Shown here piece by piece: positions 23,681-44,797 of a stretch of 64,000 bases of DNA. A program made the translations under genes and the position numbers. The stretch covers positions 1 to 64,000 of the forward strand of contig CANRHH010000006.1 of the NCBI GenBank assembly GCA_947630375.1. Direction: 5' to 3'. How positions within the stretch are numbered: position 1 is the stretch's first letter; each line of letters begins with the position of its first letter. The notes under the pieces were generated by a model. That model searched no databases. It was not told where the DNA came from and was given only the letters and a program-made list of their open reading frames with translations. This stretch comes from an uncultured Oscillospiraceae bacterium (GTDB lineage: Bacteria > Bacillota > Clostridia > Oscillospirales > Oscillospiraceae).

Positions 23681-24763
23681 TCACATTTTGGATATGAGCT
23701 CTTCCAGCTCCCACCGGCGGCCGGTCCGGGTGGCGATCTGCATCCCGCCCATCTGGGCGGTGCAGTTGGCCTCCACCATGCACCAGCCTCTCTCCCGGCT
23801 CCAGGCCAGGTCCCAGCCGCAGTAGTGGTTCCCGGGGACGGCCAAGGCCGCCTCCTTCACCATGGCCACCGCCTCCTCCCAGTGGGGGATGGCAAAGCCC
23901 CGGAAGGCCACGCCGCTGTCCGGATGGACGGCATAGCGGCCGCCTTTTTTGTCCGCCCCGTCGGAGCAGACCAGGCCGGTGTCCGGGTCGATCAGGGCGG
24001 TGATGCCGCCGGCGCTGAAATTATCGACCACGCTGCTGCCCAGACCCACCCGGAGCGTGGGGTGGAACAGCCGGACCTCCGGCTCCCCGTTCTCCCCCCG
24101 GATGACGGCGGTGGGCACGCGCAGGGTGTTCACCGAGCCGCTGTGGATCGCCGCCATCTCGCTTCCCTGGTCGATGAGCTCCTCCAGCACGGCCCCCTTC
24201 TCCCGGTAGGCCTCTACGGCCTGGGCGGCGGAGGCGTAGTTCCGGGCGCTGTCCAGATGGACGCCCCGGCCGAAGGCGGCGTAAATGGGCTTGACGATAT
24301 AGTCCGGGTGCTTTTCGGCAAAGGCCCGGTAGCTCTCCTCCAGGCTGCCTCCGGCGGGAGCCTTGGCCCGTATGCATATCATATCACGTTTAAACAAATT
24401 CTGAAAGTATTTATAAGTAAGAAATTTATTTTCCAGCAAATTTGTGTTCTTAGGGTCGTTCATGCGGGGATAAAAGCTCATGCGGATGCCCTCGGTGATG
24501 AAGGAGGAGCGGTAGGCCGCGTCCCGCCCCTCATAGCCGAAGAGGAAATATTCGTTGTAATAGGAGCCGTATTTAAAGAGAGAGCGGATCATGTCCCGGC
24601 GCAGGGACCGGACATAATGCCGGTCGGCCAGTAGCTCCGGACTCTTGAAGGCGCGTATGATATCGTCGATCTGACGGCGCTTGCGGTGGTAGTAGTAGGC
24701 TTTGCGGTACCAGGTCTTAAAGCGGATCTTTTTATAGATCTTTCTTCTAAGCTCGTGGAGCAT
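23681..24763 (-). CDS. Sugar-transfer-associated ATP-grasp protein (copy 4)
   Basis: A 360-aa ATPgrasp_ST protein with a very basic start (MLHELRRKIYKKIRFKTWYRK), DYIVKPIYAAFGRGVHLDSA, LEELIDQGSEMAAIHSGSVNTLRV, SVVDNFSAGGITALIDPDTG and the C-terminal CGWDLAWSRERGWCMVEANCTA. It is the first gene of the long leftward operon; GGGAGGG stands upstream of the ATG. A short AT-rich stretch around 24395-24440 (LLENKFLTYKYFQNLFKRD) uses AT-ending codons unlike the rest of the gene. Confidence 0.85.
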   Translation of the reverse strand: MLHELRRKIYKKIRFKTWYRKAYYYHRKRRQIDDIIRAFKSPELLADRHYVRSLRRDMIRSLFKYGSYYNEYFLFGYEGRDAAYRSSFITEGIRMSFYPRMNDPKNTNLLENKFLTYKYFQNLFKRDMICIRAKAPAGGSLEESYRAFAEKHPDYIVKPIYAAFGRGVHLDSARNYASAAQAVEAYREKGAVLEELIDQGSEMAAIHSGSVNTLRVPTAVIRGENGEPEVRLFHPTLRVGLGSSVVDNFSAGGITALIDPDTGLVCSDGADKKGGRYAVHPDSGVAFRGFAIPHWEEAVAMVKEAALAVPGNHYCGWDLAWSRERGWCMVEANCTAQMGGMQIATRTGRRWELEELISKM

Positions 24764-24878
24764 GGCGATCCCTCCCCGGCCTTGCGGCGGTTTTCACGGC
24801 CTTTCGACCGCGGATAAACAGTAGAAAGGCCGCCATGCCACGAGAGGGCATGGCGGCTTTTGACAGATAACAGCGGTT
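24764..24878. terminator. Hairpin terminator region between baiE and the polysaccharide operon
   Basis: GAAAGGCCGCCATGCC (24825-24839) pairs with GGCATGGCGGCTTTT (24847-24861). On the minus strand it follows the baiE stop by about 16 bases and is trailed by TTTCTAC, so it probably ends the baiCD-baiE transcript. The promoter of the polysaccharide operon must lie between here and 24763 but no clear boxes are seen. Confidence 0.65.
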
Positions 24879-25409
24879 TTATTTCTTGACGACTTTCTTT
24901 TTCTTGGGCCGGAACATGTTGATGCTGATCCGGTGGGTCTTGTCCCGCTGGAAGGACTCCTCGTAGATCCGCAGGTAGCCGGTCTCCATGATGAGCCACT
25001 CGCCGTCCACCTTCACATACTTGTCGGTGTAGATGGCGGAACCCTGGATCTGGGTGCCCTCATAGGGGTTGCCCTCGGCGAAGATCAGGTTGTCCTGGAG
25101 GTACCATTTGCCGACAGCCTCAGTGTCGCTGACGATGGTGATCTCCGGGTTGTGGCCCTGGTGCAGGGTGATCTCCGTGGGAGGCTGGACCTCCTTGAAG
25201 TAGTCGGTGATCTCCTTGGGGCCGTGGAACACCAGCTTGCCGTTGGAGTAGGAGGTGGAGATGTCAGGGTGCATGGTCTTCTCCAGCGCGTCCCAATCCT
25301 TGGTGTCCAGCGCGCGGAAGTAGCGGCTCTTGAGGACCTTGATGGCCTCGATATCCTTCATTTTCTGGACTTCTTTTTCAAGCGCTTCCAGCCGTTCTTC
25401 AACAGTCAT
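24879..25409 (-). CDS. baiE: Bile acid 7alpha-dehydratase
   Basis: Removes the 7alpha-hydroxyl as water from 3-oxo-Delta4-cholyl intermediates, the rate-limiting step of bile-acid 7alpha-dehydroxylation. A 176-aa SnoaL/NTF2-like single-domain protein. By recalled alignment with Clostridium scindens BaiE, residues Tyr30, Asp35, Tyr54, His83 and Asp106 fall at identical positions (RYFRALD, STSYSNGKLVFH, EITLHQGHNPEIT, WYLQDN), and the active-site Arg is Arg147 (GYLRIYEE), shifted by one through a single-residue insertion. A lysine-rich tail (KKKKVVKK) extends beyond the family core. AAAGGAC precedes the ATG. It lies 42 bases after baiCD on one leftward transcript. Confidence 0.95.
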   Translation of the reverse strand: MTVEERLEALEKEVQKMKDIEAIKVLKSRYFRALDTKDWDALEKTMHPDISTSYSNGKLVFHGPKEITDYFKEVQPPTEITLHQGHNPEITIVSDTEAVGKWYLQDNLIFAEGNPYEGTQIQGSAIYTDKYVKVDGEWLIMETGYLRIYEESFQRDKTHRISINMFRPKKKKVVKK

Positions 25410-25451
25410 GATAAATCGTCCTTTCTACAAGATGTGTGGATCCGGTGGCGG

Positions 25452-27380
25452 TCAGATGGCGGTGCCGACCTCGTAGGCCTCGCGGGTGGCGTCGATGCCC
25501 ATGCGGACTTCCTTGGCGTCGCCGATCACGTCGCAGGGGACGCCCAGCTCCGCGCACTTGGCGGTGAGGGCCTCGGTGGGACGGGAGGTGATGCCGATGG
25601 CGATGACCAGGCTGTCAAAATGCCGGGTCTTGGTGGAGGTCTTCTTGAACTTGTCGGTGAACTTGTAGGTGACCTCGTGGTCGCCGATGGAGAGGATGTT
25701 GGACTTGTTGCTGCGCTTGATCTGGTCGGGGGTGTATTCCAGGTTCAGGAACATGTTGCGCAGCATCCCGGTGCCGTTGCCCACGCGGACCTTGTCCATC
25801 ACGCGCACGTCGCAGCCCTTCTCATACAGGAACTGGGCCACTTCGATGCCGTCTCCGCCGCCGCCCAGGATCAGGGTCTCCCCATGGGCCACAGCCTTGC
25901 CGGAGAGGATATCGTCCACCGAGAAGATGTCCGCCCCGTCGATGCCGGGGATGTCGGGCGCTTTGTACTCGGCGCCGATGGCCACGATCACATGGTCGGG
26001 CTTCACTTCGGCGATCATCTCGGGCGTCACAGTGACGCCGGTCTTGATCTCGATGCCCATGCGCTCGCACTCCTTGGCCTCCCACAGGGCCGCCTCGGTG
26101 AAGCCCTGCTTCTTGGGGGCCTTGCCGGCCAGGATGAAGCGGCCGCCCAGATGGTCGGAGGCTTCGTAAATGGTGGGATTGTGGCCCCGGGCCTTCAGGA
26201 ACTCGGCCGCCATCATGCCGCCCAGGCCGCCGCCGATGATCATCACATTCTTGGGCGTGTCGGTCTTGGTCAGGCCCTTGTACTCCAGGCAGGCCATGGG
26301 GTTGCGGGTGCAGGTGATGTGGGTGGCGTTGGGGTCGATGACCTTGTCATAGCAGCCCTGGGTGCAGCCGATGCACTGGCGGATCTCGTCATCCCGGCCT
26401 TCCTTGGCCTTGTTGCACCACTCTGGGTCGGTGATCTGGGCGCGGCCGATGGCCACCATGTCGCACTTGCCCTCTTCGATCAGCTGGTTGGCCAGGGCGG
26501 GGGAGACGATGCGGCCCACGCCGGCCACGGGGATCTTCACGCGGGACTTGACCCGGGCGATGATCTCCATATTGAAGCCGGGCTCCAGGTTGTAGGGGGG
26601 AACCTCATACACCGTGGCGTTGCTGCGGGCGTTGCCGCGGGACAGGTCCACGATGTCCACACCGGCGTCCGCCGCCTGGTTGATGAACTCCACGATCTCG
26701 TCCTCGCTCATGTTCTTGGGCATCATCTCGTCGATGGCGTCCAGCCGCATGAACAGGGGCATGTCCTCAGGCATGTTGGCCCGGATGGCCTTGATGCACT
26801 CTAAGGGGAAGCGGCAGCGATTTTCAAAGCTCCCGCCGTACTCGTCGGTCCGGGTGTTCAGATAGGGATTGAGGAACTCGTGGGGCAGATAGGTATGGGC
26901 GGCGTGATACTCCATGGTATCAAAGCCGGCGTCCACCACCCGCTTGGCGGCCTCGCCGAACTGGCGCACGATCCGGTGGATATCCTCCACGCTCAGGGTG
27001 TCGGGGGTCTCCAGCTTGTTGGTCTCGTCAAAGAACTGCTCGGGCACAAAGCCGCCGTGCCAGATTTGCACACCGGCCTTGCCGCCGGCGGCGTGGATGG
27101 CGTCGGTGACTTTCTTCATGCCGGCCACGTCCTCATCGGTGTACATGCCGTAGTACAGAGGGGCGTGGGACTCGGGGCAGACGGAGACGATCTCCACCAT
27201 ATTCAGGCCGCAGCCGCCGGCGGCGCGGGCCGCGTGGTAGGCCACCACGTCCTCGGCCACACCGTGCCGGTTCTTGACCATTTTGGTGTTCATGCCGGGA
27301 AGCAGAATACGGTTCTTCAGCTCCAGTCCGCGGAGCTTAATGGGGCTAAACAGAGCATCATAACTCATAAGCTGTACCAT
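25452..27380 (-). CDS. baiCD: 3-oxo-Delta4-bile acid oxidoreductase (old-yellow-enzyme/2,4-dienoyl-CoA reductase family)
   Basis: An iron-sulfur flavoenzyme that introduces, and in the reductive arm removes, the Delta4 double bond of 3-oxo bile acids. The TIM barrel with FMN covers about residues 1-340 (starting SYDALFSPIKLRGLELKNRI, with YHAAHTYLPHEFLNPYLN). The 4Fe-4S cysteines are in CIGCTQGCYD and CTRNP, and two Rossmann folds for FAD and NAD follow (IIGGGLGGMMAAEF; LILGGGGDGIEVAQF). Length 642 is close to known BaiCD (about 639). The beginning matches C. scindens BaiCD clearly as recalled. GGAAAG precedes the ATG at 27380; homology would start at the ATG at 27368. Confidence 0.93.
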   Translation of the reverse strand: MVQLMSYDALFSPIKLRGLELKNRILLPGMNTKMVKNRHGVAEDVVAYHAARAAGGCGLNMVEIVSVCPESHAPLYYGMYTDEDVAGMKKVTDAIHAAGGKAGVQIWHGGFVPEQFFDETNKLETPDTLSVEDIHRIVRQFGEAAKRVVDAGFDTMEYHAAHTYLPHEFLNPYLNTRTDEYGGSFENRCRFPLECIKAIRANMPEDMPLFMRLDAIDEMMPKNMSEDEIVEFINQAADAGVDIVDLSRGNARSNATVYEVPPYNLEPGFNMEIIARVKSRVKIPVAGVGRIVSPALANQLIEEGKCDMVAIGRAQITDPEWCNKAKEGRDDEIRQCIGCTQGCYDKVIDPNATHITCTRNPMACLEYKGLTKTDTPKNVMIIGGGLGGMMAAEFLKARGHNPTIYEASDHLGGRFILAGKAPKKQGFTEAALWEAKECERMGIEIKTGVTVTPEMIAEVKPDHVIVAIGAEYKAPDIPGIDGADIFSVDDILSGKAVAHGETLILGGGGDGIEVAQFLYEKGCDVRVMDKVRVGNGTGMLRNMFLNLEYTPDQIKRSNKSNILSIGDHEVTYKFTDKFKKTSTKTRHFDSLVIAIGITSRPTEALTAKCAELGVPCDVIGDAKEVRMGIDATREAYEVGTAI

Positions 27381-27882
27381 CTTTCCTTTTCAAAATTTTA
27401 ATTTTTTTTGCCTGTTTTTCAGGCTTTTTCGGGAAGCTGCTCGGTTGGGAAGAACACGGCAGAAAACTTTTATGACAAAATTATAACACCCGGACATTAT
27501 ACGCACTGGATATTATCTTGCGATATCATAAAAAGGAAATGTACAAAAATTGAAGTTTTACCGTCACTTTTCAAAGACTCCCGGCAAATTGCATAAAGCG
27601 TTTTCGGATAAAAGGGCGCCCGCCTGATGGAAATGTTAAAAAATAGAGGGCCTTTTTGGGGACGTCCGGGGCCGCCCGGCGGCGGAGGGAGAGAAAAAAC
27701 GCATAAAATGTAAGCGATTTATAAAATAATGACGAATAAATAAACAGAAAAATGCGGCTTTTTCTGTGGGGTTTCTGTCTGTTTCCCGATAAAAATGAGT
27801 GACATAAAATTCACATGTGCCCTATAATAACAAATAGTAAAAGGCCGCGCCGGCGGACGGCGGCGCGGGAATGGAGAGACAT
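27381..27882. promoter_or_regulatory. Divergent control region between baiCD-baiE and baiA-baiH
   Basis: About 500 AT-rich bases without a convincing gene. Rightward promoter: GTGACA 27799-27804 with TATAAT 27823-27828 (18-base spacing). Leftward -10 candidates are ATTATA at 27480-27485 and 27496-27501 (TATAAT on the minus strand) without a clear -35. A small stem with a T tract (GCCTG, TTTTT, CAGGC, TTTTT; 27410-27429) lies close to the baiCD start and is of unknown meaning. The long leaders leave room for regulator binding on both sides. Confidence 0.7.
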
Positions 27883-28641
27883 ATGGAGCTGCTGAAAAAC
27901 AAGGTGGCGGTGATCACCGGCGTCAACTCCGGGATCGGCCGCAAAACGGCGGAGCTGTTCGGGCAAAACGGCGCCAGCGTGGTGGGCGTGGATATCCGGA
28001 CGGACCGGATGGACCAGCTGCAGACCTGTATCGAGGCGGCGGGCGGCGCGTTTTTGCCCTGCCGGTGCGACGTGCGCAACGGGGCGGAGGTGAAAGAGGT
28101 GTTTGCCCGGGCCTTGGAGCGCTTCGGCCGGGTGGATATCGTGGTGAACAACGCGGGCGTGTCCTGCTCCAGCCCGGTGACCCGCATCAGCGGCGAGGAG
28201 TTTGACCGGGTGATGGACATCAACGTCAAAGGCGCCTTTAACTTCTGCAAGTACGCGGCCCGGCTCTTCAAGAAGCAGAAGCGGGGCGTCATCGTCAACA
28301 CCTCCTCCGTCAACGGGATCTATGGCTCCGGCATGGGCTGCCCCTATTCGGCCAGCAAGGCCGCCGTCATCGGGCTGACCCAGAGCCTGGCCATCGAGCT
28401 GGCCCCCTGGAATGTGCGGGTCAACTCCGTGGCCCCCGGGGTCATCAACACCGAGATGGTGAGTATGCTGACCGACCAGGCCCGGCAGACCTTTGCCAAC
28501 AGCATCCCCCTGCGGCGCATGGGCGAGGCGGAGGACGTGGCCGACGCGATCCTGTTCCTGGCCTCGGACATGGCCCGCTACATCACCGGCACCACCCTCT
28601 CTGTGGACGGCGGGTACCGTCCCAGCACCGTCAACCCCTGA
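27883..28641 (+). CDS. baiA: Bile acid 3alpha-hydroxysteroid dehydrogenase (BaiA type, copy 1)
   Basis: Short-chain dehydrogenase that oxidises the 3alpha-hydroxyl of cholyl-CoA and reduces the 3-oxo group at the end of the pathway. 252 aa: TGVNSGIG nucleotide loop (residues 12-19), NNAG, catalytic Ser in NTSSVNGIYGS, YSASK with catalytic Tyr and Lys, and the C-terminal SVDGGYRP. Asp37 at the end of the second beta strand predicts NAD. Start: ATG at 27883 behind GGAGAG, aligning with known BaiA starts; an ATG at 27871 overlaps the ribosome site. Followed 58 bases later by baiH. Confidence 0.82.
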   Translation: MELLKNKVAVITGVNSGIGRKTAELFGQNGASVVGVDIRTDRMDQLQTCIEAAGGAFLPCRCDVRNGAEVKEVFARALERFGRVDIVVNNAGVSCSSPVTRISGEEFDRVMDINVKGAFNFCKYAARLFKKQKRGVIVNTSSVNGIYGSGMGCPYSASKAAVIGLTQSLAIELAPWNVRVNSVAPGVINTEMVSMLTDQARQTFANSIPLRRMGEAEDVADAILFLASDMARYITGTTLSVDGGYRPSTVNP

Positions 28642-28699
28642 ATCCCACGCGACTGCGGAACACAAACACGAAAATATACAACGAAAAGGAGAAGGCAAC

Positions 28700-30691
28700 A
28701 TGATCACAGACATGAAAAACGCGAAACTGTTTACCCCCCTTCAGCTGGGCCGGACGACCCTGAAAAACCGCATCGCCATGGCCCCCATGAGCATGCACTA
28801 TGAGGCCTCCGACGGCACGGTCCCCAAACAGTTGGCGGACATCTTTGTGCGCCGGGCCGAGGGCGGCGCGGGCTACGTGGTCATCGACGCGGTGACCGTG
28901 GACCACAAGTATTGGTACATCGGCCGCACCACCGCTCTGGACAAGGACAAGCTGGTGCCCCAGTTCCGGGCCTTTGCCAAGCGCATCAGCGACGCGGGCA
29001 GCACCCTGATCCCCCAGATCATCCATCCGGGCCCCGAGTCCATCTGCGCCCTGAAGGGCATCAAGCCCCTGGGCCCCTCCGTGAACACCAACGCCAACGG
29101 CGCGGTGAGCCGGGCCATCAGCGTGGAGGAGATCCAGAAGATCGTCAAGCAGTACGGCCAGGCGGCCCGCCGGGCCGAAGAGGCCGGCTGCGGCGGCATC
29201 GCCCTGCACTGTGCCCACGCCTATATGCTCCCCGGCGCGTTCCTCTCCCCCCTGCGCAACAAGCGCATGGACGAGTACGGCGGCTGCATCGACAACCGGG
29301 CCCGCCTGACCCTGGAGATCATCGAGGAGTGCCGGCGGAACGTGAGCCGGGATTTCCCCATCATCCTGCGGGTCTCCGGCTCCGAGCGGCAGCCCGGCGG
29401 CAACGGCCTGGACGAGATGCTGTATCTGGCCCCCAAGTTCGAGGCGGCCGGCGTGGACATGCTGGAGGTCTCCGGCGGCGTCCAGTACGAGGGATTGCAG
29501 AACATCCTGCCCTCCCACAGCCAGAAGATCGGCATGAACGTGTACGAGGCCTCCGAGATCAAGAAGGTGGTCAACATCCCTGTGTTCGTGGTGGGCAAGA
29601 TCAACGACATCCGCTACGGCGCCGACCTGGTGGAGCGGGGCCTGGTGGACGGCATCAGCCTGGGCCGCCCCCTGCTGGCCGATCCCGACCTGCCCAAGAA
29701 GGCCTATGAAAACCGCTTTGACGATATCACCCCCTGCGGCTCCTGCGGCGGCCGCTGCATCACCCCCGAGGATCCCCAGCACCCGGTGTGCAAGTGCCAC
29801 ATCAACCCCCTGGTGGGCCGGGAGTACGACTTCCCCTTTAATCCGGTGGACAAGCCCCGGAAGATCCTCATCGTGGGCGCCGGCCCCGGCGGCATGTACA
29901 CCGCCGTCACCGCCGCCGAGCGGGGGCATGACGTGACCGTGTGGGAGAAGAGCGGCCAGATCGGCGGCCAGCTGAACCTGGCGGTGGTCTCCCCCGGCAA
30001 GCAGGAGATGTGCAAGTGGCTGGTCCACCTGAACTACCGGGCCAAGAAGGCCGGCGTGAAGTTCGAGTTCAAGAAGGAAGCCACCGTGGAGAACGTGAAG
30101 GAGTTCGCCCCCGACGCGGTGGTCCTGGCCACCGGCGCCACCCCGCTGATCCCCACCTTCATCAAGGGCGTGGGCCAGTATCCCATCATCACCACCCATG
30201 ACATCCTCAGCCGGAAGGTCACCATCCCCAAGGGCCGCGTGTGCATCCTGGGCGGCGGCGAAGTGGCCTGCGAGACCGCCGAGATGCTCATGGCCGACGC
30301 CCGGCCCAACTCCTTTGCCACCACCGGCAGCATCGGCGACGTGGAAGTGGAGCTGGTGGAGATGCTGCCCCAGATGATGACCGGCGTGTGCCTGCCCAAC
30401 CGGAACATCGCCCTGGCCAGCCTCCGCCGGGAGGGCGTGAAGATGCACGTCAACTCCAAGGTCCTGGAGGTCACCGAGCACGATGTGAAGATCCAGCACA
30501 AGGACGGCAGCGAGGAGTGGCTCAAGGGCTTTGACTACATCGTCCTGGGCCTGGGCTCCCGGAAGTACGATCCCCTGTCCGAGGCCCTGAAGGACGTGGT
30601 GCCCGAGATCCATGTGATCGGCGACGCCATCAAGCCGGGCCAGTCCAGTGACGCCATGCATCAGGGCTTCGAGGTGGGCTACAACCTGTAA
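28700..30691 (+). CDS. baiH: Bile acid Delta6-reducing iron-sulfur flavoenzyme
   Basis: Old-yellow-enzyme/2,4-dienoyl-CoA reductase family. In the reconstituted pathway BaiH reduces the 3-oxo-4,6-diene made after dehydration. 663 aa, against about 661 in C. scindens BaiH. The barrel opens with KLFTPLQLGRTTLKNRIAMA and contains ADIFVRRAEGGAGYVVIDAV and LHCAHAYMLPGAFLSPLRNK. The cluster motif is CGSCGGRC with a later CKCHINP, then Rossmann segments IVGAGPGGMYTAVTAAERGH and ILGGGEVACETAE. Several of these stretches match BaiH better than BaiCD as I recall them. AAGGAGAAGG precedes the ATG at 28700. Confidence 0.93.
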   Translation: MITDMKNAKLFTPLQLGRTTLKNRIAMAPMSMHYEASDGTVPKQLADIFVRRAEGGAGYVVIDAVTVDHKYWYIGRTTALDKDKLVPQFRAFAKRISDAGSTLIPQIIHPGPESICALKGIKPLGPSVNTNANGAVSRAISVEEIQKIVKQYGQAARRAEEAGCGGIALHCAHAYMLPGAFLSPLRNKRMDEYGGCIDNRARLTLEIIEECRRNVSRDFPIILRVSGSERQPGGNGLDEMLYLAPKFEAAGVDMLEVSGGVQYEGLQNILPSHSQKIGMNVYEASEIKKVVNIPVFVVGKINDIRYGADLVERGLVDGISLGRPLLADPDLPKKAYENRFDDITPCGSCGGRCITPEDPQHPVCKCHINPLVGREYDFPFNPVDKPRKILIVGAGPGGMYTAVTAAERGHDVTVWEKSGQIGGQLNLAVVSPGKQEMCKWLVHLNYRAKKAGVKFEFKKEATVENVKEFAPDAVVLATGATPLIPTFIKGVGQYPIITTHDILSRKVTIPKGRVCILGGGEVACETAEMLMADARPNSFATTGSIGDVEVELVEMLPQMMTGVCLPNRNIALASLRREGVKMHVNSKVLEVTEHDVKIQHKDGSEEWLKGFDYIVLGLGSRKYDPLSEALKDVVPEIHVIGDAIKPGQSSDAMHQGFEVGYNL

Positions 30692-30726
30692 AAAACCTGG
30701 CCAACTTTTTGACAAATACTATCCGC

Positions 30727-30765
30727 GCCCCGGACGGAAAATCCGTCCGGGGCTGTTAATTTTAG
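30727..30765 (+). terminator. Terminator after baiH
   Basis: Perfect 12-bp stem GCCCCGGACGGA / TCCGTCCGGGGC with an AAA loop (30727-30753), followed by TGTTAATTTT. It separates baiA-baiH from the regulator transcript. Confidence 0.88.
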
Positions 30766-30801
30766 CGCAAAACTTGACATTTTGCTAAAAGATGATACAA
30801 T
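30760..30801 (+). promoter_or_regulatory. Promoter with inverted repeat, upstream of the tandem AraC regulator
   Basis: Consensus TTGACA at 30774-30779 and TACAAT at 30796-30801, 16 bases apart. The -35 box lies between inverted arms TTTTAGC-gc-AAAA (30760-30772) and TTTTGCTAAAA (30780-30790), a likely operator. Confidence 0.8.
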
Positions 30802-30862
30802 TTATATTTGAACTATTCCATACTTTGAACGGTTCCGCGGCGCGGGACCGTCCGGGAGGGGA

Positions 30863-32110
30863 GTGACGGCGGTGAAGCAGGGCAGAGTCCTCTACGAAAA
30901 GGCGAAGGAGCGCGTGTTTACCGGCCCTGACAAATATCTGGTTTTGCAAAAGGTGCTCATCAGCGACCATATGTCCCCCGTGCTGGAATTTGACAGCTAT
31001 TTTATCCTGGTCCGGCGGGGGGAGGGCAAATTCGTCATCAACGGCGAGGCCTTTGACGCCCTGCCCGGCTGCGTGGCCTGGATCCAGGCCTCCCAGGTGC
31101 TGTCCATCCTGCCCGCCTTCGGGGAGGAGATGGAGCTGTGGGTCTGTGCCTACGACTATCAGCTGCTGAACTATTTCATGTTCGACCAGGTGAGCCTGAA
31201 CAAGGAGAGCGACATCGTCACCGAGGTGCCGGTGATCGGCCCCGAGGGGGAGAACATGCCCGCGCTGCTGAAGCTCTTCAGCCAGTTTGACCAGCTGTGC
31301 CGGATGAAGAGCAACGGGGCGGCGGTGATCCGCAGCGCCTATCTGCGGAAGATGGAGCTGCTGTATAACCGGGAGGCCCAGAAATACAAAGAGCAGTACA
31401 GGCTGGACGACATGCCTCTGGGCCGCCGGGTCAGCCTGTATATCGCCACCCGCAGCACCCTGAAGCTGACGCCGGAGTCGGTGGCGGAGGCCATCTCCCC
31501 CCAGCTCACCGGCGCGGCGGTGAACCACGCCCTGCTGGTGACCACGGGGATGAATTTCAACCAATACCTGGTCCGGCTGCGGCTGGTGATGGCGGCCTCC
31601 TACTTTTTATATTACAGCCTGCCCTTTGACTATATCGCCTCCAGCGTGGGCTTTGATATCGACGTGACCTTTTACCGCCGCTTTAAAAAGCTCACCGGCA
31701 TGACCCCGGAGACCTACCGCAGCCAGATGCTCAGCAATGGAAAAAGCGGCCGGGTCTACCGGAAGATGATCCTCAGTGAGCACATCGTCTCCACCGTCAA
31801 CTATCTGTACGAAAACCTCACCGAGCATATCGACGCGGAGACTATCTCCAAGGCCCTGTTCGTATCCGGGAGCCTGCTGCGCATCCAGTTCAAGGACTGC
31901 TTCAATACCGGCTTCAAGAACATCCTGGCCCTGTTCCGGGTCCGCTACGCCGAGGCCCTGCTCACCACCACGGACATGCCCGTGATCGACATCTCCATCG
32001 AGTCCGGCTTCAGCTCGGACCGGACCTTTAGCCGGACCTTCTGGGAGATCAACGGCGTTTCGCCCAGCGAGTTCAGAAAGCAGCGCCGGGAGAGGAGGAA
32101 GGACGCCTGA
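30863..32110 (+). CDS. Transcriptional regulator with two tandem AraC-type DNA-binding domains
   Basis: A 415-aa protein. Residues 1-170 are a cupin-like sensor (YFILVRRGEGKFVINGEAFD). Residues about 190-285 form a first, diverged AraC/XylS domain (LKLTPESVAEAISPQLTGAA, then FDYIASSVGFDIDVTFYRRF-KKLTGMTPETYR). Residues about 305-410 form a second (IDAETISKALFVSGSLLRIQ, then PVIDISIESGFSSDRTFSRT, NGVSPSEFRKQ). Two full DNA-binding domains in one chain are unusual, as AraC proteins normally have one of about 100 aa. AraC-type BarA/BarB proteins adjoin known bai operons, so a bile-acid-responsive regulator is the best inference. Confidence 0.85.
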   Translation: MTAVKQGRVLYEKAKERVFTGPDKYLVLQKVLISDHMSPVLEFDSYFILVRRGEGKFVINGEAFDALPGCVAWIQASQVLSILPAFGEEMELWVCAYDYQLLNYFMFDQVSLNKESDIVTEVPVIGPEGENMPALLKLFSQFDQLCRMKSNGAAVIRSAYLRKMELLYNREAQKYKEQYRLDDMPLGRRVSLYIATRSTLKLTPESVAEAISPQLTGAAVNHALLVTTGMNFNQYLVRLRLVMAASYFLYYSLPFDYIASSVGFDIDVTFYRRFKKLTGMTPETYRSQMLSNGKSGRVYRKMILSEHIVSTVNYLYENLTEHIDAETISKALFVSGSLLRIQFKDCFNTGFKNILALFRVRYAEALLTTTDMPVIDISIESGFSSDRTFSRTFWEINGVSPSEFRKQRRERRKDA

Positions 32111-32111
32111 T

Positions 32112-32666
32112 ATGCAAGGAAAGAAAGAAGGAACCCTCAATTCCAAATTTGGGGAGACGCACAGCTATTTTGTGCGCAACGTGCTGCCCAGCGGCATCCA
32201 GGCCCACCGGCGCAGCGTCCACAGCCCCACCTCCCTGATCCACAACCGGGATCAGACCTTTCTGCTCATCCGGCGGGGCGCCGGCATCCTGACCGTCAAC
32301 GGCCTGGAGTATGCCCTGCGGCCCGGCACCCTGGTGAGCCTGGGGCCCTTCCATATCTATTCCTACACCCCCGGCGAGGGGCAGACCCTGGAAGTGACGG
32401 AGAGCCGCATGAACAACGGGGCCTATATGTACCTGATCTCCAACCCCTATTTCCGGATGCAGAACTTCACCGTCCCCTCGGAGCCGCCGGTGGTCTATCT
32501 GGAGGGGCTGATGCGGGAGGTGGCCTACACGGCCATGGACGGGCTCCTGACCGAACAGGGGAAGAACACCTGGGACGCCGGCAGCCTCTGCTTCTGCTAT
32601 ATGACGGAGCTGTTCGGCATCGTGGCCGACGAGATGGCCCGGAGAAAGAATAAAAACAAGAAGTAA
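32112..32666 (+). CDS. Cupin-only sensor protein related to AraC N-terminal domains
   Basis: A 184-aa protein one base after the regulator stop. It has the beta-barrel pattern of AraC ligand domains: FLLIRRGAGILTVNGLEYAL and RPGTLVSLGPFHIYSYTP, similar to YFILVRRGEGKFVING in the protein upstream. No helix-turn-helix domain follows; it ends in a lysine-rich tail after FCYMTELFGIVADEMARRK. It may bind the same ligand and modulate the regulator, or be a regulator that has lost its DNA-binding half. A strong terminator follows. Confidence 0.72.
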   Translation: MQGKKEGTLNSKFGETHSYFVRNVLPSGIQAHRRSVHSPTSLIHNRDQTFLLIRRGAGILTVNGLEYALRPGTLVSLGPFHIYSYTPGEGQTLEVTESRMNNGAYMYLISNPYFRMQNFTVPSEPPVVYLEGLMREVAYTAMDGLLTEQGKNTWDAGSLCFCYMTELFGIVADEMARRKNKNKK

Positions 32667-32679
32667 TCAGTCGAGAAAC

Positions 32680-32720
32680 GCCGCCCTCCGGCTCCGCCGG
32701 AGAGGCGGCGCCGTTTTTTT
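32680..32720 (+). terminator. Terminator after the regulator pair
   Basis: GCCGCCCTCCGGC, TCC, GCCGGAGAGGCGGC stem (one extra base in one arm), then GCCGTTTTTTT. Confidence 0.9.
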
Positions 32721-33026
32721 CCGGCGGGTCCGGGGCTCCTCCGGCGAATAGTGTAGAAACTGGCCAAAGCTTTTCGACGGCGGTTTTCCGGTTTTTGTGG
32801 AATTTACATAATCCGGCGAAAGGCAAAAACGTAGCAAAATATAAAATTTTGTCAGCTGGCGTGGTATAAAATAAAAAAATTTAAACAAATACGGTGGGGA
32901 AAGAGCTGTTAAAATATTAGCGTATAGGAAGCATATTACAAAGGGGACCGGCGGGGTTTGGGAAGGCCCCGGCGGCCGGCAGAAAACTCCACAAGAATTT
33001 TTATGAACTGAGAAAGGAAGAAGCTT
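32721..33026 (+). promoter_or_regulatory. AT-rich leader of the baiA2-baiB-baiG-baiF transcript
   Basis: About 300 bases without a gene. A -10-like TATAAA lies at 32865-32870 within GGTATAAAATAAAAAAAT; the best upstream partner is poor. Further AT-rich words continue to 32935. AAAGGAAGAAGC precedes the ATG at 33027. An activator-dependent promoter would fit the weak -35. Confidence 0.5.
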
Positions 33027-33794
33027 ATGTTTGAAAACGCATTCAAAGACAAGGTTGTTGTCATCTCCGGAGGCAGCCGCGGCATCGGGTTCGCCGCTGT
33101 GAAGGGCTTCCTGGCCGGCGGAGCGAAGGTCTGCTTCCTGAGCCACTATGAAGAGACCGGCGCCAAGGCTCTGGCCGAGCTGCAGGAAATCAACCCCGAC
33201 TATGAGGTCTTCACCCGCCACATCGACCTGTGCGACTTCAAGGCCGCCCAGGATCTGTACAAAGAGGTCGAGGCCAAGTGGGGCAAGATCGATGTTCTGA
33301 TCAACAACGCCGGCAAGGACTCCAGCACCTGGATCACCAAGCTGAAACAGTCCGAGTGGGACGACGTGGTGAACCTGAACATGAAGGGCACCTTCAACAT
33401 GAGCAAGTATGCGGTCCCCTATCTGCAGAAGACCAAGGGCTGCATCATCAACACCGCCTCCGTGGCCGGCGTGTACGGCACCCCCACCGGCCTGCCCTAT
33501 CCCGCCTCCAAGGCGGCCGTGATCGCCATGACCAAGTCCCTGGCCTACTCTCTGGCTGACCGCGGTGTGCGCGTCAACTGCATCGCCCCGGGCGTGGTGG
33601 AGACCGACCTGGTCAAGAATCTGCCCAAATTTGCCAAGGACAGCATCGGCGACACCATCCCCATGAAGCGCATGGGCCAGCCCGAGGACATCGCCAACGC
33701 CATGATGTTCCTGGCCTCCGACGCGGCCTCTTACATCACCGGCGTCTGCCTGCAGGTAGACGGCGGCTACCGTCCCAACAACCAGCCGAAATAA
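33027..33794 (+). CDS. baiA: Bile acid hydroxysteroid dehydrogenase (BaiA-like SDR, copy 2)
   Basis: A 255-aa short-chain dehydrogenase: ISGGSRGIGFAAVKGF nucleotide loop, LINNAGKDSS, catalytic Ser in NTASVAGVYGTPTG, YPASK, CIAPGVVETDLVKNLP and the end VDGGYRP. The GGSRGIGFAA and VAPGVV-D-DM-like parts resemble C. scindens BaiA1/A2 more than copy 1 does. At the end of the second beta strand it has Ser39-His40 where copy 1 has Asp37, so the cofactor preference may differ. First gene of the baiA-B-G-F block; which of the two copies does which 3-oxidation or reduction is not decided by sequence. Confidence 0.82.
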   Translation: MFENAFKDKVVVISGGSRGIGFAAVKGFLAGGAKVCFLSHYEETGAKALAELQEINPDYEVFTRHIDLCDFKAAQDLYKEVEAKWGKIDVLINNAGKDSSTWITKLKQSEWDDVVNLNMKGTFNMSKYAVPYLQKTKGCIINTASVAGVYGTPTGLPYPASKAAVIAMTKSLAYSLADRGVRVNCIAPGVVETDLVKNLPKFAKDSIGDTIPMKRMGQPEDIANAMMFLASDAASYITGVCLQVDGGYRPNNQPK

Positions 33795-33865
33795 GACCCG
33801 GCCGGGCCCTTTTGGGCGTGGCGCTTTGTCCTGCGCATAGAATTTAAGTGTCAGAGGCATTTGTC

Positions 33866-35392
33866 ATGGCAGAAGCTGTCGAGCATTTTAACATCTTCAA
33901 CCGGGGCGGGTCCAGCTGCTTTACCGCCGGCAGGCAGCTGGGGAACATCGCCCGGGTAAAGCCGGACGCCCCCGCGATCATCTACATATCCCAGGAGGGG
34001 CGGGAGAGCGTGAGCACCTGGCGGGAGATCGAAGAGCTGTCCAACCGGATCGCCTGGTTCCTGATGGACCGGGGCATCGGCCCGGGGCACAGCGTGATCG
34101 CCGCCCTGCCCAACACCCCCTTCCATGTGACCCTGGCTTTCGGCATCTGGAAGGCGGGGGCCTGTTATGTGCCCGTCTCCAACCGGGCGCCCCGGCGGAA
34201 CATGGCGGAGATCTGTGAATGCGTCGCCCCCTCCCTGGTGGTGACCAACCGCGCCAAGCCCAAGGAGTTTGCCAGCCTCAGTACGGCGGAGCTCCGGGAG
34301 CTGTGCGAGGGCTTCTCCGACCAGGCCCCGCCGGACATCCAGGCCATCCCCAACCTGGCCAACTGCTCCGGCGGCAGCACGGGAAAGACCAAGGTGATCG
34401 AGCAGAATATGCCCGCCGGCGAGAGCGACGAGGGCCTGGAGACCTGGTTCAAAATGACCGGGATGGACTTCGAAATGCGCCAGATGCTGGCCGGGCCCCT
34501 GTTCCACGGGGCGCCCCACTCGGCGGCTTTCAACGGCCTGTACGCGGGCAACACCCTGATCATGCCCGCCAGTCTCAAGGCGGAGACGGTGCTGGAGCTG
34601 ATCGAGAAGTACCAGGTGGAGTACGTGCAGATGGTGCCGACCCTGATGGAGCGGATCCTCCGTCTGCCGGACTTCTCCGGGGAGCGGCTGCGGAGCCTGA
34701 AGGCCCTGTGCCACACCGGGGGCATCTGCTCCAAGGATCTGAAGCGCCGCTGGCTGGAGCTGCTGCCGCCGGAGCGGGTCTATGAGATCTATGCCATGAC
34801 CGAGTGCGTGGGCATGACCTACATCCGGGGCGACGAGTGGCTCCAACACCCGGGCAGCGTGGGCCGGATGCTCTCCGGCCGGATCGAGGTCCGGGACGAG
34901 GAGGGCCGGGACCTGCCCCCGGGCCAGATCGGGGAGATCTTCATGAGCTGGGGCGAAAACGGCCCCCAGGTGACCTACAAGAACGTGCCCCCGCTGCCGG
35001 TGGATGAGAAAGGCTTCCGCAGCGTGGGGGACATGGGCTGGATGGACGAGGAGGGTTACCTCTATTTCGCCGACCGGCGCAGCGACATGATCGTCACCGG
35101 CGGGGAAAACGTCTTTGCCGCCGAGGTGGAAGAGGTGCTGAAGAAGCACCGGAAGGTGGCCGACGCGGTGGTGGTGGGCCTGCCCGACGAGGAGTGGGGC
35201 CACCGGATCCACGCCATCATCGAGGCCTCCGAGGCGGTCAGCGACAAGGAGCTCATCAAATTCTCCCTCAACTATCTGCCGCCCTACAAAATGCCCAAAT
35301 CCTTCGAGTTTGTGGATCTCATCCCCCGCAGCGAGAGCGGGAAGCTCGTCCGGGGCGCTCTCATAGAGGAAAGTCTGAAAAAGGGTTACTGA
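33866..35392 (+). CDS. baiB: Bile acid-CoA ligase
   Basis: ATP-dependent ligase that activates cholate and similar acids as CoA thioesters, the entry step. A 508-aa ANL-superfamily enzyme. P-loop SGGSTGKTKVIEQ, then the stretch GPLFHGAPHSAAFNG, VQMVPTLMERI, LKALCHTGGICS, the AMP motif YEIYAMTECVGM, GFRSVGDMGWMDEEGYLYF, and SDMIVTGGENVFAAEVE; the catalytic Lys is in ESGKLVRG. Several of these match C. scindens BaiB as recalled. GAGG at 33854-33857 supports the ATG at 33866; a GTG at 33848 is possible. Confidence 0.94.
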   Translation: MAEAVEHFNIFNRGGSSCFTAGRQLGNIARVKPDAPAIIYISQEGRESVSTWREIEELSNRIAWFLMDRGIGPGHSVIAALPNTPFHVTLAFGIWKAGACYVPVSNRAPRRNMAEICECVAPSLVVTNRAKPKEFASLSTAELRELCEGFSDQAPPDIQAIPNLANCSGGSTGKTKVIEQNMPAGESDEGLETWFKMTGMDFEMRQMLAGPLFHGAPHSAAFNGLYAGNTLIMPASLKAETVLELIEKYQVEYVQMVPTLMERILRLPDFSGERLRSLKALCHTGGICSKDLKRRWLELLPPERVYEIYAMTECVGMTYIRGDEWLQHPGSVGRMLSGRIEVRDEEGRDLPPGQIGEIFMSWGENGPQVTYKNVPPLPVDEKGFRSVGDMGWMDEEGYLYFADRRSDMIVTGGENVFAAEVEEVLKKHRKVADAVVVGLPDEEWGHRIHAIIEASEAVSDKELIKFSLNYLPPYKMPKSFEFVDLIPRSESGKLVRGALIEESLKKGY

Positions 35393-35440
35393 TATCGTAT
35401 CTGCGACCCCCAGAAACCAGATTAAGGAGCTGGAAAAGTA

Positions 35441-36856
35441 ATGGAAAACAAAAACTATATGAAAGGTTTCATACCGTATGCCATCGCCGCTGCGGTCCTG
35501 AGCCTTTGCGGCGGCTTCACCGCCTCCGTGCCTTCTGCGATCGCGGTCGGCTGGAACGCTGACTGGTCGCTGACCTTTATCACCGTGGCCTACTCCCTGG
35601 CCGCCGCCGCCATGGCCCCCATTATGGGCAAGCTGGGCGGGACCATCGGCCGCCGGAAGATGCTGCTGATCGCCATGGGTCTGTACACCGTGGGTCAGGC
35701 GCTCATCGCCATCTGCCCCGCCAACGTCCCCATGCTGCTGATCTTCCGTTTCATGGTCGGTATTGGTGCCGCCGGTATCGCCCCGGTCGTCATGGCCTAC
35801 ATCATGATGGAGTTCCCCCCCGAGAAGATGGGCCAGGGCTTCACGATCTACATGGCGCTGTCCTGCGGCATGGTCATCTTTGGACCCACTGTGGGCGGCA
35901 TCATCATGAGCGTGATCGGCACCGCCGAATCCTGGCGTATCGTCATGTGGGTGTGCGTTGCTCTGTGCGTGATCTCCTTTGCCCTGTGCTTTGCCATGGT
36001 CCGCGACAACCCCAACCTGCCCAAGGGCTCTATGAAGGGCTTTGACTGGGTCGGCGCCGTGTTCGTGCTGATCATGTTCGGCGGCCTCGTCTGCATCCCC
36101 ACCTTCGGCCAGGATGCCACCAAGGGCTGGGGCTCCCCCTACACCCTGATCTCCATCGCGGCCTCCGTGATCGGCCTGATCGTCCTCATGTTCGTGGAGA
36201 AGAAGGCTGCCAACCCCATCCTGAGCGGCAAGTTCATGGCCCGGAAGAACTTCATCCTCCCCGTGGTCGTGCTCTTCCTCACCCAGGGCCTGATGACCGC
36301 CTGCCTGACCGAGATCATCCGCTTCGGCTATGCCATTGAGAAGGCCACCATCGCCTCCGTCGCCATGAGCATCGAGTATCTGGGCATGGCCATCGGCACC
36401 ATCGTCCTCGGACCTATGGCCGACAAGAAGGAGCCCAAGGTCGTCGCCGCTGTGGCCCTCGTGTTCGTGGCCATCGGCTCCGCCATCATGCTCCTCATCA
36501 ACGAGACGGCGGGCGTGCTGTCCATGGGCGGCGCTCTGTTCTTTGTGGGTCTGGGCCTTGGCGGCAACGCCACCATCTTCATGAAGGTCGCCCTCTCCGG
36601 CGTCGCTCCGGCCGACTCCTCCTCCGCCTCCGGCACCTTTAACGTGTTCAAGGATATGTGCGCTCCCTTCGGCGTGGCCATCTTCGTGTCCATGTTCGTT
36701 TCCAACATGACCTCGAAGGCCGCCGCCGGCGCAGCGGCTTCCGCTGCCGCCGCCAGCGCTCTGCACACCGTCGCTATGGTGCAGCTGGCCTGCGTGATCG
36801 TCGGCATCGTGGTCTGCTTCCTGCTCCCCACTGTCCACGAGAAGCAGAAAGCCTGA
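35441..36856 (+). CDS. baiG: Bile acid importer, MFS superfamily
   Basis: A 471-aa proton-dependent transporter of primary bile acids with 12-14 membrane helices. MFS loop 2-3 motif GKLGGTIGRRKMLL, then FRFMVGIGAAGIAPVVMAYI, RIVMWVCVALCVISF, FMARKNFILPVVVLFLTQGL and GLGLGGNATIFMKVALSGV, which agree closely with C. scindens BaiG as recalled. The C-terminal loop is very alanine-rich (TSKAAAGAAASAAAASA). It lies between baiB and baiF with ordinary gaps of about 50 bases. Confidence 0.92.
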   Translation: MENKNYMKGFIPYAIAAAVLSLCGGFTASVPSAIAVGWNADWSLTFITVAYSLAAAAMAPIMGKLGGTIGRRKMLLIAMGLYTVGQALIAICPANVPMLLIFRFMVGIGAAGIAPVVMAYIMMEFPPEKMGQGFTIYMALSCGMVIFGPTVGGIIMSVIGTAESWRIVMWVCVALCVISFALCFAMVRDNPNLPKGSMKGFDWVGAVFVLIMFGGLVCIPTFGQDATKGWGSPYTLISIAASVIGLIVLMFVEKKAANPILSGKFMARKNFILPVVVLFLTQGLMTACLTEIIRFGYAIEKATIASVAMSIEYLGMAIGTIVLGPMADKKEPKVVAAVALVFVAIGSAIMLLINETAGVLSMGGALFFVGLGLGGNATIFMKVALSGVAPADSSSASGTFNVFKDMCAPFGVAIFVSMFVSNMTSKAAAGAAASAAAASALHTVAMVQLACVIVGIVVCFLLPTVHEKQKA

Positions 36857-36909
36857 GCGCAGTCTGAAAACAGGCTGTCTACATTAAATTATCTGAAAGG
36901 AATTACGAA

Positions 36910-38268
36910 ATGAAGGTTATTGACAATAAGCTGACTCAGAAGTTCGACGAATATCCTGCGTTTGGCGTCCTCCAGGGCGTGAAGGTCTTTGTCACCGGCA
37001 CCAACATCGCCGGCCCCTTCGCCGGGTCCCTGATGGCCGAGATGGGCGCGAAGGTCCTCCAGGCCGAGGCCCCCAACATCGCCTGCCAGACCCGCGGCAC
37101 CCTGTCCTGGTCCCAGAACCACCGCAACGAGTTTGCCATCACCATCAACACCTCCTCCCCCAAGGGCAAGAAGATCTTCCTCAAGTGCATCGAGTGGGCC
37201 GACATTTGGATCGAGGCCGGCCGCCCCGGCACCTACAAGAAGCGCGGCCTGACCGATGAGGTCTGCTGGGAGCACAACAAGGCCCTGTCCATCGTCCACG
37301 TGTCCGGCTACGGCCAGTTCGGCCCCTCCAAGGACAAGCCCTCCTACGACGTGTCCGGCCAGGCCATGGGCGGCTACATGTACCTCAACGGCGTGTCCCC
37401 CACCGCCGGCCCCCTGAAGGTCAACCCCTATCTGTCCGACTACGTGACCGCGTACAACGCCTGCATCTGCGCCATGGCCGGCTACATCCACGCCAAGAAC
37501 ACCGGCGAGGGCGACTCCTGCGACGTGGCCCAGTATGACACCATGTTCCGTCTGCTGGACAACTATCCGGCCAACTGGTTCAACAAGGGCTATCCCAAGC
37601 CCGGCGAGCCCGTGCCTTACCGCACCGGCAACAAGAGCGACCAGGCCGCCTGCTTCTCCTTCTATGACACCAAGGACGGCGGCGCTATGTTTGTCGCCAT
37701 CGTGGGCCAGGGCCCTGTCACCCGCGGCTATCCCATCATCGGCATGGGCAAGCCCGGCGTGGACCCGGATATCCCCAAGGAGTGCACCGGCTTCCCGCTG
37801 TTCGACCCCCGCGGCCAGAAGGCCGAGGCCCTGTGCGCCAAGTTCTGCGCCGAGCGCACCTGCGATGAGCTGGAAGAGATCTTCAACGCCGCCGGCATCC
37901 CCTGCCAGCGCGCCTACGGCCCCGCCGACATCGAGAAGGATCCCCAGTACGAGGCCCGCGAGAACATCGTGGAGTGGGAGGATCAGTGCTTTGGCAAGAT
38001 GAAGGGCATCGGCGTTGTCAACATCTTCAAGAAGAACCCCTCTCAGATCGTCGCCTCCGCTCCCTGCTTCGGCGAGCACAACCGGGAGGTCCTCAGCTCC
38101 TTCGGCTACACCGACGAGGAGATCGACGAGCTGTACAAGAAGGGCGAGCTGAACACCTGGACCCCCGCCGACACAGCGCGGATCAAGAACTTTGTCCAGT
38201 GGCACTTCTTCTGGGATCCCGAGCGCCAGAGCAAGCGCATCGGCCTGGAGTATCCCCCCAAAAAGTAA
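36910..38268 (+). CDS. baiF: Bile acid CoA-transferase (CaiB/BaiF family)
   Basis: Class III CoA-transferase that moves CoA from the product thioester to incoming primary bile acid, saving ATP. 452 aa. GVKVFVTGTNIAGPFAGSLMAEMGAKV opens the domain; QNHRNEFAITIN, GRPGTYKKRGLTDEVCWEHN, VHVSGYGQFG and the region DVSGQAMGGYMYLNG-VSPTAG (containing the expected catalytic Asp) follow, then RTGNKSDQAACFSFY and IPCQRAYGPADIEKDP. The chain is about 25 residues longer than BaiF of C. scindens, mainly at the two ends. Last bai gene; a terminator follows. Confidence 0.92.
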   Translation: MKVIDNKLTQKFDEYPAFGVLQGVKVFVTGTNIAGPFAGSLMAEMGAKVLQAEAPNIACQTRGTLSWSQNHRNEFAITINTSSPKGKKIFLKCIEWADIWIEAGRPGTYKKRGLTDEVCWEHNKALSIVHVSGYGQFGPSKDKPSYDVSGQAMGGYMYLNGVSPTAGPLKVNPYLSDYVTAYNACICAMAGYIHAKNTGEGDSCDVAQYDTMFRLLDNYPANWFNKGYPKPGEPVPYRTGNKSDQAACFSFYDTKDGGAMFVAIVGQGPVTRGYPIIGMGKPGVDPDIPKECTGFPLFDPRGQKAEALCAKFCAERTCDELEEIFNAAGIPCQRAYGPADIEKDPQYEARENIVEWEDQCFGKMKGIGVVNIFKKNPSQIVASAPCFGEHNREVLSSFGYTDEEIDELYKKGELNTWTPADTARIKNFVQWHFFWDPERQSKRIGLEYPPKK

Positions 38269-38301
38269 TTCCCGCGGCCGTTTTTAAAGCGGCATGACCT
38301 G

Positions 38302-38354
38302 GGGCTGTGAAAGGAAGAGTTCATAAGGACTTCGGCTTTCACAGCCCTCTTTTA
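38302..38354 (+). terminator. Terminator after baiF
   Basis: GGGCTGTGAAA (38302-38312) pairs with TTTCACAGCCC (38337-38347), followed by TCTTTTAT. The 24-base loop is long, but the stem is perfect. Confidence 0.8.
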
Positions 38355-38477
38355 TACAAAAAGGATTTATAGGCAAACTATCTGCCATTTTTTAGCTATA
38401 TCCTTACATTTAGCAGATTTTTTGGATATATTACATAATATGCGCAAAAAACGGCGGCTCTGTCCGGCAACTATTTG

Positions 38478-38506
38478 TTGACAAGAACCAAAAACTGTAA
38501 TAAAAT
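38478..38506 (+). promoter_or_regulatory. Consensus promoter of the ABC transporter operon
   Basis: TTGACA at 38478-38483 and TAAAAT at 38501-38506 with 17 bases between. A 125-base leader with GC-rich stems (CCGGCGGGGCTCCCGCCGG at 38581-38599) follows. The region 38355-38477 is AT-rich without visible features. Confidence 0.85.
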
Positions 38507-38631
38507 AATGAACAAATGAGGGCGGAAACGGGGACCGCACAGGGGAAGCGGGCTCCGGCTCCGGCTCATATGACAGGTGTCCGGCGGGGCTCCCGCCGGG
38601 CAGGATTCAACAAGAATAAGGAGAAAAAAGC

Positions 38632-40191: not shown

Positions 40192-40248
40192 TTCAGCAAA
40201 ATTCCCCCTTTCCCGGCCCCGGCGGGGCCAAAAAGACAGTATTCCGTT

Positions 40249-40289
40249 CCACAAGCCTGCGGGCTGCGCCCGCAGGCTTGTGGTTAAAA
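40249..40289 (+). other. Strong intra-operon hairpin after the binding-protein gene
   Basis: Perfect 16-bp stem CCACAAGCCTGCGGGC / GCCCGCAGGCTTGTGG with a TGC loop, followed by TTAAAAA rather than a T tract. Stems of this kind protect the upstream message and lower read-through, giving more receptor than membrane components. Confidence 0.8.
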
Positions 40290-40320
40290 AGCAGCCCCGT
40301 AAAAAAGGAGTGAATAACGT

Positions 40321-41256: not shown

Positions 41257-41260
41257 GAAT

Positions 41261-42145: not shown

Positions 42146-42156
42146 GAGGGACGGAT

Positions 42157-44110: not shown

Positions 44111-44113
44111 AAT

Positions 44114-44773: not shown

Positions 44774-44797
44774 GCGGAGGAAGAGAGGAAGCAAAGA

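Follow-up and report, generated by a model that had tools for sequence, protein, structure and literature searches.

The 64,000-nucleotide stretch analysed here (the window: positions 1 to 64,000 of contig CANRHH010000006.1, assembly GCA_947630375.1, from an uncultured Oscillospiraceae bacterium) carries a bai gene cluster for the 7alpha-dehydroxylation of bile acids (Table 1). This cluster is real and complete by gene content; both the group to which it belongs and its layout have been reported before. Judged from its sequence, it very likely represents a complete chromosomal bai set for the conversion of cholate to deoxycholate in an Oscillospiraceae genome, probably that of a gut member of the family, and it is probably active. 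Gene calls based on the open reading frame (ORF) list and on Pfam and NCBIfam profile matches show that all the named bai genes are open and intact, with the strands and the divergent split arrangement described by the original prediction, a reading of the window from its letters alone. They include all six enzymes (B, A, CD, E, F and H) of the set that, according to a review (PMC10382948), suffices for the pathway; Oscillospiraceae are named there as a recognised group. The Oscillospiraceae context proposed earlier also stands, the nearest named records being 'uncultured Oscillospiraceae' metagenome-assembled genomes (MAGs), and the cluster is not a product of chance, because the same gene block recurs in other genomes. 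The forecast of a further group of producers is supported as to pathway and split layout, but the group is not new, having been reported by Kim 2022 (PMC9426597) and Song 2021 (PMC8623032).

Table 1 Features of the bai cluster and its flanks (positions in the window; aa, amino acids; SDR, short-chain dehydrogenase/reductase; MFS, major facilitator superfamily; CoA, coenzyme A; ABC, ATP-binding cassette).
Feature	Position	Strand	Evidence or remark
Sodium:solute symporter	20817-22418	-	flank
ATP-grasp gene, sugar-transfer-type	22574-23635	-	flank
ATP-grasp gene, sugar-transfer-type	23681-24763	-	flank
baiE, bile acid 7alpha-dehydratase, 176 aa	24879-25409	-	SnoaL_4 domain; PDB BaiE matches
baiCD, 3-oxo-delta4 flavoenzyme, 642 aa	25452-27380	-	NF041087; Bai clade; four-cysteine motif
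Conserved element 5' of baiCD, AAATTnTAAC core on + strand	27474-27489	-	upstream-region alignment
Promoter-like site before A1-baiH	27799-27828	+	11/12 matches
A1, second SDR of the locus, 256 aa, outside the BaiA group	27871-28641	+	domain, PDB, tree, identity
baiH, flavoenzyme of the reductive arm, 663 aa	28700-30691	+	Bai clade; four-cysteine motif
Terminator-like hairpin 3' of baiH, 12 pairs	30727-30753	+	hairpin scan
Promoter-like site before barA	30774-30801	+	11/12 matches
barA-like AraC-family regulator, 415 aa	30863-32110	+	HTH_18; 35-36% identity to barA-place genes
barB-like protein, 184 aa	32112-32666	+	borderline AraC_binding; 27-28% identity to barB-place genes
Conserved element 5' of baiA, TGTTAAAATATT core	32906-32924	+	upstream-region alignment
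baiA, 3alpha-hydroxysteroid dehydrogenase, 255 aa	33027-33794	+	PDB 4is2; groups with C. scindens BaiA2
baiB, bile acid CoA ligase, 514 aa	33848-35392	+	NF038344
baiG, MFS importer, 471 aa	35441-36856	+	MFS_1; 47-49% identity to baiG-place genes
baiF, CoA transferase, 452 aa	36910-38268	+	CoA_transf_3; 43-44% identity to baiF-place genes
Opp-type ABC transporter (binding protein, two permeases, two ATPases)	38632-44110		directly after baiF

Enzymes of the cluster and the predicted pathway

In trees, BaiE, BaiCD and BaiH fall within the Bai clades and not outside them, the outcome that had been named beforehand as speaking against the cluster. The top three PDB matches of BaiE are the three solved BaiE sequences (E-values 1.7e-72 for 4l8o, 5.9e-68 and 3.2e-64; 64 and 63% identity to the two that were aligned), and in a quick tree the protein groups with BaiE of other bai clusters, apart from a group of orphan BaiE-like proteins. 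It retains Y30, D35, H83, D106 and R147, which we take to be the dehydratase active-site positions. All five are kept in 20/20 aligned rows, and the three orphan BaiE-like rows also keep them, so these positions alone are no proof of bile-acid activity. The flavoenzyme tree has 39 rows, including five flavoprotein paralogs from the host genome and one from a genus member (G339). BaiCD (17 rows) and BaiH (16 rows) form separate Bai clades there, each supported at 100/100, apart from the paralogs and including sequences of Extibacter, Dorea D27, Lachnospiraceae CE91-St61 and Peptacetobacter. The four-cysteine motif is kept in 17/17 BaiCD and 16/16 BaiH, and Asp177 of BaiF in 17/17 rows; together with the conserved BaiE positions, these residues presumably have catalytic roles. 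The mechanical ORF of baiH extends from 28493 to 30691, with the likely start at 28700.

The product of baiA, likely a BaiA ortholog by sequence, has as its best PDB match the bile acid 3alpha-hydroxysteroid dehydrogenase 4is2 (E 3.1e-57) and groups with the BaiA2 of Clostridium scindens, Peptacetobacter and G041 (a genome of another genus of the same family) with moderate support (81/80), in a fork that includes one long-branch G041 SDR. BaiB passes the NF038344 cut-off (839.5 bits versus 650), which none of 14 control genomes reaches. The names BaiF and BaiG rest on identity to the genes at the same place in the operons of Extibacter, Dorea D27, Lachnospiraceae CE91-St61 and Peptacetobacter, because neither protein has a curated model of its own among its matches. 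Among the regulators, the barA comparison was with the barA-place genes of Extibacter and Dorea D27, and the AraC_binding match of barB is borderline (21.0 bits versus a cut-off of 21.1).

Gene content and conserved residues are observed directly, and the pathway steps are deduced from orthologs. BaiG would import free cholate, BaiB would ligate it to CoA, BaiA would oxidise C3 and BaiCD C4, BaiE would dehydrate at C7, BaiF would move CoA, and BaiH, BaiCD and BaiA would reduce the resulting 4,6-dienone to deoxycholate. The CD-E and A-B-G-F transcripts are probably activated by BarA/BarB in the presence of bile acid, and A1-baiH would be driven from a near-consensus promoter. No choloylglycine hydrolase was matched in the host genome (the control matched in 4/14 genomes), so that deconjugation would presumably be left to its neighbours; a second BaiF was not found there either (one BaiF match). 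An allo-bile-acid side branch was considered and rejected. The BaiJ/BaiP-like query for it was the flavoprotein of the G325 cluster, named from its place and its FAD_binding_2 domain and not by comparison with BaiJ or BaiP; it matched 10/13 bai-carrying genomes at E 1e-30 and none of the window genome, G383 and G041. As candidates for BaiN, two full-length HI0933-type proteins of the host genome were considered and rejected: the family is widespread (14/14 control genomes, five over the cut-off) and nothing ties either protein to bai.

Several points weigh against an active cholate pathway. BaiCD, at 821.3 bits, is 3.7 bits short of the NF041087 cut-off (825), which is a curated naming line and not a function. 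The best PDB match of BaiF is a carnitine CoA-transferase, and the best curated models of BaiF and BaiG (carnitine CoA-transferase and EmrB-type efflux, respectively) both remain under their cut-offs. BaiB, BaiF and BaiG were assigned by scores and not by trees, with one BaiB over the cut-off and one BaiF match in the genome, and the absences listed above rest on a 95.9% complete assembly. Finally, identities to the single-operon lineage are only 42-50% for BaiA, BaiB, BaiF and BaiG, and substrate choice is not readable from sequence. These last two points, and an importer replaced or missing in 5/8 carriers with a contig spanning the region, favour an intact set acting mainly on other steroids (other bile acids, bile alcohols), with cholate not its natural substrate; this we consider improbable, since cholate is a substrate in vitro for BaiA and BaiB from the very similar UBA11811 set (PMC9426597) and Eubacterium sp. 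c-25, which has the split layout, produces deoxycholate (PMC8623032).

A mis-binned cluster or a decaying remnant might be suspected from the host assembly (a 64-contig draft with 2.65% contamination) and from the lack of the cluster in most of the 101 sampled genomes of the genus. This is highly improbable: all the frames are open and under purifying selection, the same 64-kb stretch holds dnaK, which groups with that of G363 (a rabbit MAG of the same genus) at 100/99, and the flank genes are the same in other carriers. The ratios of nonsynonymous to synonymous substitution rates (dN/dS) against G363 were 0.011 for baiE, 0.079 for baiCD, 0.056 for baiH, 0.096 for baiF and 0.18-0.20 for baiA, baiB and A1, indicating purifying selection; they were 0.22 for barA and 0.52 for barB.

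The additional dehydrogenase A1

The original prediction counted two BaiA copies: the gene at 33027-33794 does group with BaiA, whereas the one at 27871-28641, here called A1, does not. A1 shares 40% identity with the BaiA of the window, 41% with C. scindens BaiA2 and 54% with an A1-type gene of G041. The tree places it outside the BaiA2 group, with a weakly supported deep fork (58/85, drawn open) that includes generic SDRs on long branches; on this evidence A1 may be a BaiA or another enzyme. Its best PDB match is a yeast-type hydroxyacyl-CoA dehydrogenase, followed by BaiA2 (E 4.6e-54). Within the genus, 9/10 BaiCD carriers have A1 (at least 66% identity), and none of the other 91 genomes gave a match at E 1e-60 (Fisher 5e-12), a figure that denotes association and is no proof of a role, given the physical linkage of A1 to the bai genes. 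It stands between CD and H in four carriers and after baiE in four; G367 has it on a separate contig, and G325 lacks it but has a second BaiA-type gene and a flavoprotein near that place. At E 1e-20, a single additional SDR (C3:55239-55961) was matched in the host genome; its matched stretch includes an in-frame TGA.

From these sequence comparisons, A1 is probably a second hydroxysteroid dehydrogenase. Tentatively, at a little under an even chance, we propose that it contributes to the pathway in a way not described before, as a hydroxysteroid dehydrogenase of the bai locus with a role of its own; no description of A1 was found in searches and text passages of the literature, figures not covered. 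As an example, it may be the 3-oxo reductase of the last reductive step beside BaiH, with BaiA acting with BaiB on the first oxidative step; alternatively, it may be a dehydrogenase for another position. If A1 does have its own role, whether these Oscillospiraceae release plain deoxycholate or other secondary bile acids would depend on its presence. A competing possibility, which we hold with some reserve, is that A1 is a spare BaiA, the two diverged copies sharing the first and the last step. The C. scindens BaiA2 and BaiA1/3 are interchangeable in this way (Meibom 2024, PMC10936602), BaiA2 is the second-best PDB match of A1, and G325 has no A1 yet carries a second BaiA-type gene near that place. 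However, identity between the C. scindens copies is about 90% (PMC10936602), compared with about 40% between A1 and either the BaiA found here or C. scindens BaiA2. G041 retains the BaiA and A1 types side by side, and the codon use of A1 is below that of baiA (0.57 versus 0.63).

Transcripts, flanking genes and relatives

The genes CD-E, H and A-B-G-F form separate units, with barA-barB upstream of baiA, which makes the layout a split one. Three transcripts had been predicted; barA-barB appears to be a unit of its own, and the sequence probably encodes four: CD-E, A1-H, barA-barB and A-B-G-F. A promoter scan of positions 24700-38700 gave 12 sites versus 3.6 expected, the best three of which (11/12 matches) precede A1-baiH, barA and the downstream ABC transporter. 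Terminator-like hairpins in the region were not above chance (14 seen versus 12.2 expected); G+C-rich hairpins occur 3' of barB and baiE. The element before baiCD is kept in 9/9 aligned upstream regions and TGTTAAAATATT before baiA in 8/8, and the region before A1-baiH is conserved in the four genomes in which A1 precedes baiH.

The symporter and ATP-grasp genes are co-inherited with the bai cluster. The ATP-grasp pair is beside it in 10/10 BaiCD carriers of the genus sample and in G153 and G208 (genomes of another genus), and the symporter is matched at E 1e-180 in 8/10 carriers versus 1/91 others (57%). On the other side, a two-subunit iron-sulfur L-serine dehydratase follows the Opp-type transporter (combined stretch 38632-45694). 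No support was found for this transporter as a bile-salt importer: in the regions mapped, matches (29-36%) were limited to one ATPase subunit, with none to the permeases or the binding protein.

BaiE was matched at E 1e-20 in 7/300 sampled genomes of the family, three of which (G070, G147, G204) have an orphan BaiE-like gene only. BaiCD was matched at E 1e-80 in 19/101 sampled genomes of the genus: ten at identities of at least about 70%, the best match of the other nine not exceeding 37%. The split bai layout is thereby placed in a large Oscillospiraceae genus (10/101 sampled genomes). The loci of the nine other genus carriers were compared with that of the window, and eight carriers (window included) have a contig spanning the A-B-F region. 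A, B and F are present in 8/8 of them, and the place between B and F varies: a BaiG-lineage gene in three (window, G339, G383), another MFS gene in two (G363, G325) and no gene in three (G392, G374, G310). In G367 the contig ends beyond CD-E; G306 has no barA within 2.97 kb beyond baiH, and a 44% BaiA-like match on another contig. G041 has a C. scindens-like order (B-CD-E-A-A1-F-H) and no BaiG match.

Other observations were made in these loci. In G325 (L086 15888-18486), the interval from baiH to barA holds a second BaiA-type SDR and an FAD_binding_2 flavoprotein that may be BaiJ/BaiP-like, and in G383 (L090 4544-5056) a further SnoaL_4 protein of 170 aa follows baiF. The orphan BaiE-like proteins (L067, L068 and L069, in G070, G147 and G204) are 36-40% identical, and their genes adjoin a GntR/FCD regulator (verified in L069) and a pair of similar-looking reductase genes, of which the one inspected is of the ketopantoate-reductase type; no other bai genes were seen near them in the 14-19 kb mapped, in 3/3 loci.

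The nearest named records are two 'Lapin' MAGs (L012 and L013; BaiE 99%) and UBA1701 (L017; BaiE 85%), L012 being the same contig as that of G363 and L017 that of G383. L012 and L017 are probably from other species than the window, as their aligned pieces are only 78-89% and 69-80% identical to it in nucleotides, respectively. The 'Lapin' isolate names suggest rabbits, which served in early studies of deoxycholate and allo-deoxycholate (PMC10382948).

The bai genes were probably exchanged between genera, as the trees suggest: the DnaK tree (DnaK from 20/21 genomes) sets the genus apart from G153, G208 and G041, weakly (82/93), BaiCD and BaiH of G153/G208 nest within the genus, and a single genus clade was rejected in quick trees by the approximately unbiased test (p 0.0006 with 10 rows, 0.03 with 9 rows), which was framed after the nesting had been seen in an earlier tree. 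The tree of the flanking symporter has a similar nesting. Within the genus, synonymous distances (dS) to G363 were 0.17-0.22 for baiE, baiCD, baiH and baiF, 0.47-0.71 for three flank genes, A1, barA and baiB, and intermediate for baiA (0.31) and barB (0.41). Codon use, with the dnaK gene alone as reference, was near that of dnaK (0.77) in baiH (0.76), baiF (0.75) and baiCD (0.69), and unlike it in baiE (0.59), A1 (0.57) and baiB (0.54). Recombination as the cause of the low dS of the first four genes was set aside, because dS is low against G383 too (E, F, A, CD, H and G) and the codon use of baiH, baiF and baiCD is dnaK-like; at baiE, whose codon use is not, exchange may have occurred.

Comparison with known bai systems

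The closest described relative is cluster 1 of Kim 2022 (UBA11811 / Firmicutes CAG:103; PMC9426597), from uncultured Oscillospiraceae with 62% GC and the order baiE-/baiCD-/baiH+/barA+/barB+/baiA+/baiB+/baiG+/baiF+/baiF+, for which BaiA and BaiB activity was shown in vitro. The window shares the family, the GC class and the order and strands from baiE- to baiF+, and differs by A1 between baiCD and baiH and by one baiF instead of two. Our genomes G153/G208, whose BaiE is 82-83% identical to that of the window, probably represent this lineage, because G208 fits the tabled protein lengths of the UBA11811 set for 8/10 genes. For each of the 41 MAGs of Kim 2022 a bile salt hydrolase is reported (PMC9426597), whereas none was found in the window genome, which would be a real difference; the window genome also had no BaiJ/P-like match, and BaiP/BaiJ relatives are reported in Oscillospiraceae MAGs (PMC9645264).

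The split layout has been described in the cultured deoxycholate producer Eubacterium sp. c-25, in which cholate induces baiB, baiCD and baiH (Song 2021, PMC8623032). As in c-25, Dorea sp. AM58-8 and AF36-15AT, and Sporofaciens musculi, the window has baiCDE, baiH and baiA2BGF separate and barA/barB upstream of baiA2BGF (PMC8623032). Unlike the window, which has a BaiG-lineage gene, c-25 has no BaiG ortholog and carries another MFS gene there; it has baiI elsewhere in its genome, and the passages on the split set, figure apart, do not mention A1 (PMC8623032).

The C. scindens type of single operon, as found in Extibacter, Dorea D27, Lachnospiraceae CE91-St61 and Peptacetobacter (L014, L015, L016, L028), has the same enzymes and importer, and divergent barA/barB; among these four loci, only that of Peptacetobacter has baiA inside the operon. 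In the locus of Extibacter muris DSM 28560 (L014 ~7920-8060), there is no stop between the baiB and baiCD frames, the close relative L015 having stops. Compared with this type, the window has a split arrangement, and the identities are 57-73% for E, CD and H and 42-50% for A, B, F and G. The layout of the window, with A1 before baiH and the flanking symporter and ATP-grasp genes, is shared by UBA1701 (L017/G383) and by the rabbit MAG Lapin-022 bin48 (L012/G363); in the latter, another MFS gene replaces BaiG, and the stretch from barB to baiA has an insertion that holds a diverged second barA/barB pair (43%, 32%) along with genes for a CoA ligase (35%) and a CoA transferase (24%) (L093/L091).

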